35,045 bases of DNA from Archangiaceae bacterium (GTDB taxonomy: Bacteria > Myxococcota > Myxococcia > Myxococcales > Myxococcaceae): contig JAACJQ010000049.1 in NCBI GenBank assembly GCA_016879935.1, forward strand, positions 1-35,045, given 5' to 3'. Positions 8,445 to 29,952 of this stretch are shown here, piece by piece (the stretch's first letter is position 1; the number at the start of each line of letters is the position of its first letter). The notes beneath the pieces were generated by a model. It was given only the letters and a program-made list of their open reading frames with translations. It made no database searches and was not told the DNA's origin. Position numbers and translations under genes: made by a program.

Positions 8445-8549
8445 GGGCTTCAGACCATGTCGTGCGCCGTGAAATGGCTCCTGATGGTGGTGATGTCGTT
8501 CGCTCCGCTGGCCTTCGCTGAGCAGGTCGTGACGCTGGGCGGCTTCGGC
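8445..8549 (+). repeat. Direct repeat copy 2, partner at 5636-5725
   Basis: Full-length version of the repeat. It starts in the intergenic region 12 bases before ATG 8457 and covers the signal peptide and the first mature residues of the beta-barrel gene. It includes the 15 bases (about 8505-8519) that are missing from copy 1. Confidence 0.9.
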
Positions 8550-8996
8550 TCCACGACGCTCGCCTCGTTCAACTCGAGCCCCGGCGTCGGCGGCGTCGCG
8601 CTCGGCTGGCAGTACACGCGCGGCCACTTCGCGCTCGGAGCTGGCGTTCGCGCCTCGGCGCCTTCGCTCATCGCCCCGGTGCCGCTCGAAGGCTACGCCC
8701 GCGCGCTCTTCACGCTCGCCATCGGGCCATGGGAGCCGCAGCTCGGGCCCGAGTTCGGCATCAGCGGCCTGCAGGGGTTGTCGCGCCCGCTCCCGATGCG
8801 GCCGACCGACTTTGCGAGCGCCGAGAACTCGCTCACCGGCTTCTTCTACGTGGCGTTTCACACCGAGGCGGCGCGCTTTCGGTTCGGGCGCTTTCTGTTG
8901 AGCGTGCTCGGCGTCGACGTCGGCACCTCGCTCACGGCCGCGGGCACCACGCTGCGCCTGCAGCTCGACTACGCGACGGTGGGGGTCTCATGGTGA
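8457..8996 (+). CDS. Small outer-membrane beta-barrel-like protein, 179 aa
   Basis: Signal peptide MSCAVKWLLMVVMSFAPLAFA with cleavage before EQVV. The mature protein has alternating-hydrophobicity strands (VVTLGGFGSTTLASF, GVALGWQYTRGHFALGAGV, YARALFTLAIGPWEPQLGPE, FFYVAFHTEAARFRFGRFLL, TTLRLQLDYATVGVSW) and ends in an aromatic residue, as porin-like barrels do. About 160 mature residues fits an 8-strand barrel. The frame extends to 8433, but ATG 8457 gives a proper signal peptide and is where the repeat copies align. The stop codon overlaps the start of the M28 peptidase gene (ATG at 8990, TGA at 8994-8996), so the two are translationally coupled. Specific role unknown. Confidence 0.8.
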   Translation: MSCAVKWLLMVVMSFAPLAFAEQVVTLGGFGSTTLASFNSSPGVGGVALGWQYTRGHFALGAGVRASAPSLIAPVPLEGYARALFTLAIGPWEPQLGPEFGISGLQGLSRPLPMRPTDFASAENSLTGFFYVAFHTEAARFRFGRFLLSVLGVDVGTSLTAAGTTLRLQLDYATVGVSW

Positions 8997-9964
8997 GCCG
9001 GCTCCTCGTGGCAGCCTTCGCGCTCTCGGCCTGCGCGCCCGGCGTGGTCGATTCGGCGACCGTCGACAAAGCACGCGCTCTCGCGACCGAGGTCGACGGC
9101 AACCGCGTCTTCGCCGACATCGAAGCGCTCGCGGCCCTGCACGGCAAAGACACGCGCGTCGACTGTGCGGGCCTGAACACGAAGGCCGACACCTGGTGCA
9201 ACCTCACCAACACCGCGTCGCGCACCTTCGTCGCCGACCGCCTTCGTTCTCTCGGAATGACACCCGAGCTCGACACCATCGACACGCACCCTGCGACGAC
9301 CAACGTGTTCGCCGAGCTGCGCGGAACTTCGAAACCCGACGAGGTGATTCTGGTGGGCGCGCACTTCGACGCCTTCTTCATGGGCGCCGACGACAACTCG
9401 AGCGGCGTCTCGGTCATGCTCGAGGTCGCGCGGCTGCTGGCCAATCGCCCGCTCGCCCGCACGGTGCGCTTCGTCGGCTTCGACCACGAAGAGATTGGGC
9501 TCGTCGGCAGCACGAGGCACGTGAAGTCGCAGGCGAAGCCGAAGGCGTCGCTCGTGTTCGACTGTGTCGGGTTCGCCGACGACGCGCCGGGCTCGCAGGG
9601 CAGTCTGCCGGGCTTTCCCACGCCGTCGGCCGGCAACTTTCTCGCGGCCATCGCGAACGACGTCTCACGGCCGCAGGTCGAGCAGGTGCTGCAGACCGAA
9701 GGTGGCAAGAGCGGCATTCCCGTGCTGGCCATCATCGCGCCAGGCCTGGGAGCCGGGCCTCTCTCGGGAAACCTCATGCGCAGCGACCACGCGCCGTTCT
9801 GGCTCGCGGGCGAGAGCGCCGTCTTCTTCACCGACACCGCGAACTTCCGGAACAAGAACTACCACACGCGACAAGACACGCCCGAGACGCTGAGTCGGCC
9901 CTTCCTCACGGGCGCAGCGAAGGCGGCCGTGATGTCGGTCGTCGCGTGGGGAGACGCGCCATGA
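8990..9964 (+). CDS. M28-family metallopeptidase lipoprotein, 324 aa
   Basis: Zinc-dependent aminopeptidase-type hydrolase, predicted to be exported and lipidated: MVSRLLVAAFALSAC has a lipobox with Cys15. All the usual di-zinc ligand motifs of the M28 fold are visible: GAHFDAFF (His125, Asp127), MGADDNSSG (Asp134), FDHEEIGLVGS (Glu167/168, catalytic base and ligand), VFDCVGF (Asp191) and NYHTRQDTPE (His292). The order and spacing match secreted M28 aminopeptidases. A Cys pair (Cys59, Cys70) lies in the N-terminal segment. The start overlaps the end of the barrel gene, and the stop overlaps the next start (ATGA at 9961-9964), so the three genes form one translationally coupled unit. The natural substrate is unknown; peptides at the cell surface are likely. 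Confidence 0.93.
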   Translation: MVSRLLVAAFALSACAPGVVDSATVDKARALATEVDGNRVFADIEALAALHGKDTRVDCAGLNTKADTWCNLTNTASRTFVADRLRSLGMTPELDTIDTHPATTNVFAELRGTSKPDEVILVGAHFDAFFMGADDNSSGVSVMLEVARLLANRPLARTVRFVGFDHEEIGLVGSTRHVKSQAKPKASLVFDCVGFADDAPGSQGSLPGFPTPSAGNFLAAIANDVSRPQVEQVLQTEGGKSGIPVLAIIAPGLGAGPLSGNLMRSDHAPFWLAGESAVFFTDTANFRNKNYHTRQDTPETLSRPFLTGAAKAAVMSVVAWGDAP

Positions 9965-25517: not shown

Positions 25518-26336
25518 ATGTCGGAGCAGGCCCTTCCCACCGAAGGCACCATCGAGCGCTGGGCGTGGGACTACGTCACAGCCACCTCGCTCGAGCTCAA
25601 GCTGTCACCACCCGCCCCGCCCGCGACGTGGAGCCCGGCTCCGCAGCGCTGGGTGCTCGAGCGCCCCGGCCGCCCACCCGAGCTCGTTCAACGCGCGGCC
25701 CGCAAGAAGGCGGCGAAGCCAGGCGCGATGAAGGACGTGACGAAGCGCGCCGAGGTGCTCCACACCTTCCTCCACCACGAACTCCAGGCGGCCGAGCTGA
25801 TGGCGTGGGCGCTGCTCGCGTTCCCCGAGACGCCAGCGGCCTTTCGTCGCGGCCTGCTCGGCATCTGTCAGGACGAAGTTCGCCACCTCGGGCTCTATCG
25901 CGAGCACCTCGTCACGCTCGGCCACCCGTTCGGCTCCATGCCCATCAAGGACTGGTTCTGGGAGCGCGTGCCCGGCCCCTCCATCACGCCCGCCCATTTC
26001 GTCGCCCGCATGGGCATCGCCTTCGAGGGCGGCAACCTCGACCACGGCGCGCGCTTCACCGGCTACTTCGAGGCGGCAGGCGACCCACGCGCCGCGGCGA
26101 TTCAGGCGCAGATCTGCGAGGAGGAAGTGGCGCACGCCGGCTTCGCGCTGCACTGGTTTCGCACCTTCACCGGCGGCGTCGACTTCGAGCAGTGGCGCGC
26201 GCACCTGCCCGAGCCCATCAGCCCGTCGATGACGCGCGGCACCCCGCTCAACCTCGAGGCCCGTCGGCGCGCCGGGTATCCCTCCGCGTTCCTCGACGCG
26301 CTCGCGGCCTGGGGCACCGAGCATGTCGAGCGCTGA
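25518..26336 (+). CDS. DUF455 ferritin-like protein, 272 aa
   Basis: Soluble helical protein of the DUF455 family (ferritin-like fold, Pfam PF04305). The matching pattern is AEVLHTFLHHELQAAELMAW (79-98), ICQDEVRHLGLYREHL (116-131), MGIAFEGGNLDHGARF (165-180) and QICEEEVAHAGFALHW (198-213). Conserved Glu and His of a diiron or dimetal site are visible: Glu88, Glu93, EVRH (Glu120-His123), Glu170 and EVAH (Glu203-His206). Family members are expected to be metal-dependent oxidoreductases or hydroxylases, but no reaction is established. ATG 25518 is chosen; AAGG at 25506-25509 is 8 bases upstream. The frame extends to 25446 without a ribosome-binding site. It overlaps the ATP-grasp gene by 14 bases and so probably works with it. 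Confidence 0.9.
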   Translation: MSEQALPTEGTIERWAWDYVTATSLELKLSPPAPPATWSPAPQRWVLERPGRPPELVQRAARKKAAKPGAMKDVTKRAEVLHTFLHHELQAAELMAWALLAFPETPAAFRRGLLGICQDEVRHLGLYREHLVTLGHPFGSMPIKDWFWERVPGPSITPAHFVARMGIAFEGGNLDHGARFTGYFEAAGDPRAAAIQAQICEEEVAHAGFALHWFRTFTGGVDFEQWRAHLPEPISPSMTRGTPLNLEARRRAGYPSAFLDALAAWGTEHVER

Positions 26337-27228
26337 GCCGGTCGCGTGGGTGCTGAACCTCGACGCTGAAGACGAGCTCGTGCGAGGCGGCGCGCACACG
26401 CCCACCGACGTGATGACCGAGCGCATCGAGGGCCTGCTGCCGCGGCTGCGCGGGCTCGTCCGCGAGGGTGACTGCATCGCCTGGCCGGGGAACGAACGCA
26501 CGGAGCGTGGCCGGTGGGGCCGCGCGTGGTGTGTGACCCGCTGGGCGCGAACGAAGCTGGAGCAGGCGGGCATGCAGGTGCCACGTGCTCCAGCCATCGA
26601 GGTGCTGCGCCACGTGAATCACCGGCGCTTCGCGCACGAGCTCGGCCAGGCGCTGCCCACCGCCGGCTGGGCCGCGACGATGGAGCAGCTCACCTCGTTG
26701 CTCGCGAACGCCGCGCTCGAGCAGGTCTCGGTGGAGCGCAGCTGGTTGATCAAACGACCGCTCGGCTACGCAGGCCGCGGGCGCAAGTTGCTGCGGCCGG
26801 GACGGCGCTCCGCGGCTGATCAGGCCTGGCTCGAGGCCTCGCTGCGCGACGGAGACGGCGTGCAGGTCGAGCCCCTCGTCGCACGAGAACTCGACTGCGC
26901 GCTCCACGGCTGGCTCGCCGAAGACGGGCAGTGCACCTTCGGTCAGCCGACGCTCCAGCGACTCGACGCGACCGGCGCCTGGCAGTCGACCGAGCTCGGC
27001 CCGCCGCTCACCCCCAGCGAGCTCGAGCTGCTCACGCGTGAGGCCCAGCGCACGGCAGAGGCGCTCCACGCGGCCGGCTACTTCGGCCCGTTCGGCCTCG
27101 ATGCGTTTCGTTGGCGCGCCCCCGACGGCACACTCCACTTTCAACCACGCAGTGAAGTGAACGCCCGCTACTCGATGGGCTGGGCCATCGGCATGGGCGA
27201 CTTCCGCCCGCCGCCTGGCGCGAACTGA
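26323..27228 (+). CDS. ATP-grasp domain protein, 301 aa
   Basis: Residues 1-90 form a pre-ATP-grasp-like Rossmann-type start (VAWVLNLDAEDELVRGG). The ATP-grasp core follows: LIKRPLGYAGRGRKLL (about 142-157, Lys144 as nucleotide-binding Lys), the hinge VQVEPLVARELDCALHGWL (180-198), GPFGLDAFRWRAPDG and the Mg-binding stretch FQPRSEVNARYSMGW (273-287, Glu278 and Asn280). Such enzymes join a carboxylate, activated as acyl phosphate, to an amine or similar nucleophile. The substrate cannot be deduced. ATG 26323 lies inside the end of the DUF455 gene, so translation is coupled. Its stop TGA directly abuts the convergent YebC-type gene's stop (TGATCA). Confidence 0.85.
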   Translation: MSSAEPVAWVLNLDAEDELVRGGAHTPTDVMTERIEGLLPRLRGLVREGDCIAWPGNERTERGRWGRAWCVTRWARTKLEQAGMQVPRAPAIEVLRHVNHRRFAHELGQALPTAGWAATMEQLTSLLANAALEQVSVERSWLIKRPLGYAGRGRKLLRPGRRSAADQAWLEASLRDGDGVQVEPLVARELDCALHGWLAEDGQCTFGQPTLQRLDATGAWQSTELGPPLTPSELELLTREAQRTAEALHAAGYFGPFGLDAFRWRAPDGTLHFQPRSEVNARYSMGWAIGMGDFRPPPGAN

Positions 27229-27954: not shown

Positions 27955-28074
27955 GCGGCGGCGCCATAGCACGCTGATAGGCTTCGAGAAGGCATGCGCG
28001 ACCCTTTCAATCAGCCGGAATCACTGCCTCGAAAAAAGAGTGCGACGGTTTCCGGTGGTGGCCCTCTGAGGGGC

Positions 28075-29952
28075 ATGCGCTCGCTCGGAACCCTGCTCGC
28101 CCTCGCCCTGTCGGGCTGCCTCGACCTCGACGGCTCGAACTACCTCTTCACCCTCGATGCTGGCCGACGGCAGTGTGTGAGCACGCTCGACTGCGCGAGC
28201 GCCGACGTCTGTGACCAGACGTGCACCTGCGTCTCGCGCAGCTCGGCGAACGGCTTCTGTCAGTTCGTTCCCCAGGGCGGCGGCGCGGCTGGCGGAGCCA
28301 TCGGCGGCGGAGACGCAACGGCCGGAGGAGGCTCGACGGCGGGCGGATCGACGGCGGGCGGATCGACGGCGGGTGGCTCGACGGCAGGCGGCTCCACGGC
28401 GGGCGGATCCACGGCGGGTGGATCCACGGCGGGCGGATCCACAGCCGGCGGCGCGGCCGGTGGCAGGGCGGGCGGAGTCGCTGGCGGTGGCGCTGCGGGC
28501 GGCTCGTCGGGTGGCGCTGGTGGTGGCACCGCCTGCGTGGCTTCGTGCGCGGGAAAGACCTGCGGCGCGAGCGATGGCTGCGGAGGCACCTGTCAGAACG
28601 GAACCTGCACCCCGGGCCAGCGTTGCGTCGCGGGAACCTGCCAGTGCGACGCCACCTCGTGCGCGAGCGGCTGCTGCAGCGCGAGCGGGTGCGAGCTCGG
28701 CAACGTCACCAGCGCCTGCGGCTCGGGAGGCCAGTCGTGTGCCGCGTGTCAGAGCGGTTGGAGCTGCACGAGCAACGCCTGCGCCTGCGTGCCCGACTGC
28801 ACCGGCAAGGCGTGCGGCGCGAGCGACGGCTGCGGCGGTACCTGTCAGACCGGCACGTGCGGCAGCGGCACACGGTGCGTGAGCGGAAGCTGCGTCTGCG
28901 ACAGCACCTCGTGCGGCGGTTGCTGCTCGGCGGGCCAGTGTCGAACGGGCACCACCAACGCCACCTGCGGGAGCGGCGGCGCCGCGTGCACCACGTGTTC
29001 GGCGACGCAGGTCTGTGCTGGCGGGAGCGCCGGGCCCTGCATGAACGCCACGCTGCTGCAGGTCACCAACGGCGGCATCAGCACCAGCGGCCACAAGATC
29101 GTCATCGACCCTGCTGGCCAGTACGTCTACTTCCTCGATCAGAACAACAGCACCACCAACATGCAGATCTGGAAGGTGCCCACCTCGGGTGGCCCGGGCG
29201 TGGTGGTCGCAGGCGGGCTCAACTGGCCGGTGGCCATCGCGGTCGACTCCGCCAACCTCTATTGGACGAGCATCACCGACAGCACCGTGATGGCGCAGTC
29301 GCTCTCGACCGGCACGCGGCGCACGCTCGCGACCGGCCAGTACTTCCCGATGGACATCGTGGTGCGCGACGCCACCACCGTGTACTGGGCTGCCTGCGCG
29401 AGCTCGAACGGCACGAGTTGTTCGGTCTGGTCGATTCCCGTCGCGGGCGGCACGGCCACTTCGCTCTACCCGCTCAGCGGCGGAGGGAACCCCAGCCTCG
29501 CGCTGCTCCTGCCGAACCTCTACGTGACGTCGCCCGGCCTGCGGCAGGTGGTCTCCATCGCCGTCTCGACCGGAGGCTCGACGACCACCATCGACAGCAC
29601 GAGCCTGCCCTACGTCAGCGTCGACGCGAGGGCCGGCCGCGTGGCCTGGGTCGCGGCTCAGTCATCGAGCGGAGCCTTCAACGGCCTCGTGAAGGGCATG
29701 TCGGTTGGAGGCTCGAGCAGGACGATCGCCACGGGTCAGGCGCCGTTCGCGGTCGCGGTCGACGCAACGAACGCGTACTGGGTGACGGAGTCGGGCACCG
29801 GCCAGGCCATCTACAAGGCAGGCATCTCGTCGGGCAGCGCCACGCTCGTGCTCGACAACATCAGCACCTTCCACATCGCGGTCGACGCCAACTCCGTCTA
29901 CTTCCTCGGCAGCGCTGGCTGGTTCAACGGGCTCTTCAAGACTCCGAAGTGA
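28075..29952 (+). CDS. Lipoprotein with STAGG linker, Cys-rich modules and YWTD-like propeller, 625 aa
   Basis: MRSLGTLLALALSGC has a lipobox with Cys15. A Cys-rich stretch (CVSTLDCASADVCDQTCTC) precedes a Gly/Ala/Ser/Thr linker built of 15-base DNA repeats (GGSTA units, about residues 80-155). Then come Cys-rich modules of the form C-x-G-K-x-C-G-A-S-D-G-C-G-G-T-C (twice, CAGKTCGASDGCGGTC and CTGKACGASDGCGGTC). From about residue 325 a six-bladed-type propeller follows with LYWTSITDS, VYWAACAS, AYWVTESG and VYFLGSAG blades, close to the YWTD pattern. It is a surface-exposed binding protein of unknown ligand. The start is not certain: GAGGGG is only one base before ATG 28075, and an upstream in-frame ATG at 27994 exists without a signal peptide. 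A hairpin terminator follows the stop. Confidence 0.87.
   Translation: MRSLGTLLALALSGCLDLDGSNYLFTLDAGRRQCVSTLDCASADVCDQTCTCVSRSSANGFCQFVPQGGGAAGGAIGGGDATAGGGSTAGGSTAGGSTAGGSTAGGSTAGGSTAGGSTAGGSTAGGAAGGRAGGVAGGGAAGGSSGGAGGGTACVASCAGKTCGASDGCGGTCQNGTCTPGQRCVAGTCQCDATSCASGCCSASGCELGNVTSACGSGGQSCAACQSGWSCTSNACACVPDCTGKACGASDGCGGTCQTGTCGSGTRCVSGSCVCDSTSCGGCCSAGQCRTGTTNATCGSGGAACTTCSATQVCAGGSAGPCMNATLLQVTNGGISTSGHKIVIDPAGQYVYFLDQNNSTTNMQIWKVPTSGGPGVVVAGGLNWPVAIAVDSANLYWTSITDSTVMAQSLSTGTRRTLATGQYFPMDIVVRDATTVYWAACASSNGTSCSVWSIPVAGGTATSLYPLSGGGNPSLALLLPNLYVTSPGLRQVVSIAVSTGGSTTTIDSTSLPYVSVDARAGRVAWVAAQSSSGAFNGLVKGMSVGGSSRTIATGQAPFAVAVDATNAYWVTESGTGQAIYKAGISSGSATLVLDNISTFHIAVDANSVYFLGSAGWFNGLFKTPK
28336..28455. 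repeat. 15-base tandem repeat array encoding the (T-A-G-G-S) linker
   Basis: Eight units of the type ACGGCGGGCGGATCG with synonymous drift at wobble positions; the last units read ACGGCGGGCGGATCC and ACAGCCGGCGGCGCG. Each unit is five codons, so copy-number change keeps frame. It is inside the lipoprotein gene. Confidence 0.9.

Follow-up and report, generated by a model that had tools for sequence, protein, structure and literature searches.

The window analysed here, a stretch of 35,045 nucleotides, carries two overlapping genes on its forward strand. The first (25518..26336, +) starts with ATG and encodes a 272-aa ferritin-like protein of the DUF455 family (PF04305), predicted to be of the diiron type and belonging to a subfamily that we call paired, for reasons given below. 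The second (26323..27228, +) starts, also with ATG, inside the DUF455 gene and encodes a 301-aa putative ATP-grasp ligase, which its predicted fold and family profile place with BesA, LdmS and PGM1. As the first-pass annotation had described, the two reading frames share 14 bases, stop codon included (26323..26336, +), and a 14-nt overlap was also found in five relatives (L003, L004, L006, L007 and L145). Such an arrangement is compatible with translational coupling. A promoter and terminator scan returned neither element. Both genes evolve under purifying selection, with NG86 dN/dS ratios of ~0.15-0.25 for DUF455 and 0.22-0.28 for the ATP-grasp gene.

The DUF455 protein matches PF04305 with 138.3 bits over residues 44-259 (gathering cut-off 34.3), and its structure model (pLDDT 95.1) contains four long helices. 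Six residues (E88, E120, H123, E170, E203 and H206) occupy ferritin-type ligand positions following the bacterioferritin pattern, and they include the two ExxH motifs, E120/H123 and E203/H206, to which attention had already been drawn. All six are invariant in 63 paired homologues save for one H206P, and all are kept in six of six DUF455s found without the ATP-grasp partner (lone DUF455s hereafter). The H206P change, in the DUF455 of G004 (L004:1016-1831), is either a sequencing error or a real loss of a ligand. The modelled protein is hence a ferritin-like four-helix bundle of the diiron type, with the predicted ligand set E...ExxH...E...ExxH.

Comparison of the model with known structures gave as nearest full-length ferritin-like folds, among others, aldehyde deformylating oxygenase (ADO) and the azoxy synthase VlmB, both aligned over ~187 residues, versus ~140 for bacterioferritin-type bundles (Z 13.6-14.7). 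The best Foldseek match was weak (E 0.015) and, since a Z of ~14 is near background for helical bundles, these values support the fold class only, and not a particular substrate or reaction. Over the four-helix core, bacterioferritin-type proteins match as well as the oxygenases do, and the best PDB sequence matches are bacterioferritin and encapsulated-ferritin sequences, over parts of the protein. The ~50 residues that follow the bundle, on the other hand, align to ADO and VlmB and not to bacterioferritin. Together, fold and conserved residues suggest that this DUF455 is a diiron oxygenase or oxidase. No chemistry for DUF455 was found in the accessible portions of the literature naming it, and none of the literature found connects an ATP-grasp gene to DUF455 or COG2833.

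Paired DUF455s differ from lone ones in several respects. The DUF455s of Proteobacteria (Neisseria, Sphingomonas, Azospirillum) belong to the same Pfam family and have the same six ligand-type residues, but these and other lone DUF455s branch apart in the tree and score 79-124 bits against a profile of the paired proteins, whereas the first 31 paired DUF455s score 279-397 against this profile, which was built partly from many of them. Furthermore, all paired proteins have H87, E93 and N173, positions that most lone DUF455s fill with I, D and G. Since N173 follows the ligand E170 at a distance of one helical turn, the active site of the paired DUF455s has probably been remodelled. The gonococcal chromosome record contains a DUF455 gene and, over the whole record, no gene for this ATP-grasp protein.

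On its own, the partner protein found no match among Pfam, NCBIfam or PDB sequences. The Pfam ATP-grasp models left it unmatched and matched, weakly, at most 3 of its 27 relatives; likewise, it is not a member of the NCBIfam families for BesA (NF042917) and LdmS (NF047900), which recognise 2 and 4 of the 27 relatives with best E values of 3.6e-6 and 1.9e-5, respectively. An AlphaFold2 model based on the alignment of these 27 relatives (pLDDT 90.9, pTM 0.90) nevertheless retrieved 492 PDB chains at E <=0.001, with ATP-grasp enzymes in the top rows. The best structural matches were 3wvq, which we take to be the pheganomycin peptide ligase PGM1 (Z 19.8, rmsd 4.0, 268 aligned residues), BesA (8yi6; Z 18.5, rmsd 3.9, 268 residues) and a Streptomyces ATP-grasp peptide ligase (8ynd; Z 18.4, rmsd 3.7, 256 residues), followed by 8ynq (Z 17.5), after which values fall to 15.8. 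Searching the PDB with a profile of the relatives recovered BesA (E 1.8e-7) and 7r8p (E 1.8e-5); the latter, like 7r8q, is presumably LdmS. The motif residues align accordingly in 63 proteins: K144 is found in 60 (R in the rest), D260 and R282 in all, N280 in 62, and position 278 is E in 52 and D in 11. K144, E278 and N280 had been singled out in the first-pass annotation, and its assignment of the protein to the ATP-grasp superfamily is borne out by the predicted fold and the aligned motif. From the same features we infer an ATP-dependent amino-acid ligase, which would proceed through an acyl phosphate to an amide bond.

The pair is not confined to the Myxococcota: a search beyond this phylum, proposed along with the original reading, places it in at least three phyla. 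Among 195 genomes of the window's phylum, a strong DUF455 match is present in 25 and the ATP-grasp gene accompanies it in 25 of 25, while in three further genomes only the ATP-grasp gene was matched, weakly so in one (Fisher p 1.4e-28, phylogeny ignored). The two genes are adjacent on one strand in ~16 of these 25 genomes, joined in a single frame in five (G074, G075, G076, G077 and G171) and in separate places or on separate contigs in four. Relatives in named records come from Myxococcales, Sorangium and Polyangiaceae. Within the window's genus the distribution is patchy, with the pair in three of seven genomes, the window's own included. In a second phylum, reached via G329 and represented by 179 genomes, the paired DUF455 subfamily is found in 46, the ATP-grasp gene in 46 and both in 44 (p 6.7e-37, phylogeny again ignored); here the subfamily was delimited by a cut at 125 bits, drawn after a gap in the scores had been seen, with G552 and G506 just below it (122 and 116). 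The genes are adjacent in 25 of the 44 genomes, in a single frame in 8 and apart or on different contigs in 11. None of the 13 genomes of this phylum that carry only more distant DUF455s has the ATP-grasp gene. In a third, small phylum, four of five genomes carry the pair, with the genes adjacent in each case. The pairing is therefore a property of one DUF455 subfamily, and not of DUF455 as a whole. Co-occurrence is conserved in related genomes and so are the metal-site residues, the two points on which the first-pass annotation had staked its reading.

When adjacent, the genes lie on the same strand with DUF455 always upstream. Same-frame fusions number 13 in total, and two changes suffice to explain the 12 that were placed in the tree, giving about two fusion origins. 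The distances in the DUF455 and ATP-grasp trees are correlated (Mantel r 0.80 for 31 pairs and 0.69 for 63 pairs), no permutation giving a value as high. In quick trees with many weak inner branches, members of different phyla are intermingled in the clade of fusions as well as in that of the window, which points to joint transfer of the two genes. Even where the two are unlinked (~15 genomes, some with the genes on separate contigs), both genes are still kept. Our results show that DUF455 and its ATP-grasp partner form one evolutionary unit, co-inherited, transferred together, repeatedly overlapping or adjacent, and fused about twice. Presumably they are a functional unit too: the recurrence of the pair and its fusions across at least three phyla makes it very probable that both proteins carry out one two-step reaction. 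ATP-grasp relatives without any DUF455 (G066, G187, G284, G273, G367, G521 and G556) indicate that the ligase can also work alone.

Two further ATP-grasp relatives were recorded by their position. In G341 a lone one overlaps a miaA-like tRNA modification gene (L111:2949-3863), and in G542 a second, lone copy (L190:5665-6558) lies ~1.2 Mb from the DUF455 and ATP-grasp pair.

The neighbourhood of the pair was described as free of pathway genes. In the window itself this has to be qualified, as a TetR regulator gene lies 1.1 kb upstream, together with an alpha/beta hydrolase gene, and yebC is the convergent neighbour. An operon with the TetR and hydrolase genes was ruled out because neither adjoins the pair in relatives, and yebC is not conserved with the pair either, so that the absence of dedicated pathway genes holds across genomes. 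Indeed, an all-against-all comparison of the flanks revealed no recurrent third gene; the matches that it produced were antisense shadows of the pair, kinases, sigma factors, or synteny inside one genus or family. Within 1.5 kb of the locus, the window has no short ORF in common with its two nearest relatives, such as the linked precursor peptide gene of a graspetide-type RiPP system would be. No PADLOC match to anti-phage defence was obtained at E 0.01, and a plasmid search with the ATP-grasp protein gave 0 matches. Two apparent links were discarded. One, to heme, is limited to the genus of G329 and G508, in another phylum (L108:6150-7295 and 8464-9522; L178:4307-5512), where the ATP-grasp gene overlaps a gene for a HemN-like radical SAM protein and adjoins a divergent ferrochelatase-like gene, with DUF455 far off. 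The other, to fatty acids, is limited to one family, in which an unlinked DUF455 gene lies directly 3' of a fabG-like gene (G184, G185 and G186; L126:4729-5469, L142:6104-7891 and L144:6094-6720), preceded in L142 by a fabD-like gene. Elsewhere in the window, at 27994-29949, a predicted lipoprotein-like ORF without a Pfam match combines cysteine-rich segments with a long GGSTAGGS repeat.

The reading that we favour, and hold to be rather more probable than all others, is a self-contained pathway of two enzymes acting on the same amino-acid-like substrate, which the diiron DUF455 would oxidise and the ligase conjugate. The first-pass annotation had left the substrate as a small molecule, a peptide or RNA, and had supposed that it may be a common cellular metabolite. 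The nearest ligases join amino acids or peptides, which makes an amino-acid-type substrate the best reading; more precisely, the likeness to BesA, LdmS and PGM1 favours an amino acid or dipeptide and disfavours RNA. In the simplest order, DUF455 would use O2 to oxidise an amino-acid-type molecule, and the ATP-grasp partner would then activate a carboxylate as an acyl phosphate and couple it through an amide bond to another amino acid, in the manner of BesC and then BesA in a different pathway. Alternatively, ligation could come first, with DUF455 oxidising the dipeptide. The pair is accompanied by neither an exporter nor a precursor peptide or regulator gene, and its product is therefore likely to remain intracellular. 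Whether the whole amounts to an undescribed pathway, spread by transfer over at least three phyla, whose intracellular product is a novel dipeptide or amino-acid conjugate in oxidised form, we regard as an evenly balanced question. If it does, a DUF455 protein would for the first time have a function assigned to it. That one subfamily is strictly partnered with a putative amino-acid ligase offers the first strong handle on DUF455 chemistry, since the ligase indicates the class of substrate to test; two genes without accessory genes are easy to express whole, and in the natural fusions both putative activities could be examined in a single protein.

A different target for the same two activities would be a macromolecule, the pair ligating an amino acid to, and hydroxylating, a protein side chain or terminus or a tRNA, with no small metabolite involved. 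The lack of an accompanying precursor, exporter or regulator would fit this, MiaE is a tRNA hydroxylase with a related ferritin-like fold, and the overlap with miaA in G341 points the same way. We nonetheless consider it unlikely: the closest ligases act on free amino acids or peptides, patchy presence inside one genus is not what is expected of a core macromolecule modification, and no RNA-binding domain is annotated. Slightly less likely still is that DUF455 handles iron or removes peroxide instead of acting as an oxygenase, and so supplies or protects a metal site in the ligase or in the ligase's product. The partial bacterioferritin and encapsulated-ferritin matches and the fit of the four-helix core to bacterioferritin-type folds would agree with such a role, as would a peroxiredoxin gene that adjoins one proteobacterial DUF455. 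However, near the metal ligands the paired DUF455s carry three invariant residues of their own (H87, E93 and N173), the segment past the bundle can be aligned to ADO and VlmB but not to bacterioferritin, and we know of no need of an iron store for an ATP-grasp ligase. That adjacency is mere gene order without a common function is very improbable, as the genomes in which the genes lie apart, which might suggest it, retain both of them, and it is contradicted by the agreement of the trees, by the same-frame fusions and by the fact that the genes co-occur in two phyla independently.

The two-enzyme pathway that we propose has counterparts among known systems. In the beta-ethynylserine pathway, the diiron oxidase BesC acts on amino acids and works with the ATP-grasp amino-acid ligase BesA, whose fold resembles that of the window protein. 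BesC, however, is a heme-oxygenase-like diiron oxidase and not a DUF455, the bes genes form a larger cluster, and the window protein falls below the BesA family model. LdmS, the L-aspartate--L-methionine ligase of Staphylococcus aureus, is an ATP-grasp dipeptide ligase that the window model matches with Z 15.6; to our knowledge it has no DUF455 partner. PGM1 and the Streptomyces ligase 8ynd are chains of >400 aa from other pathways, with 16-18 percent identity to the window ligase. The same pairing logic is seen in mangotoxin biosynthesis, where MboA, a heme-oxygenase-like diiron oxidase, is encoded beside the ATP-grasp ligases MboC and MboD, and a survey of HDOs has mined diiron enzymes near ATP-grasp amino-acid ligases (PMC13185094). 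That survey concerns the HDO fold, whereas the diiron partner described here is ferritin-like and the system consists of two genes only. The pair is a variant of a known theme, that of a diiron enzyme with an ATP-grasp ligase, here with a ferritin-like DUF455 as the putative diiron partner.
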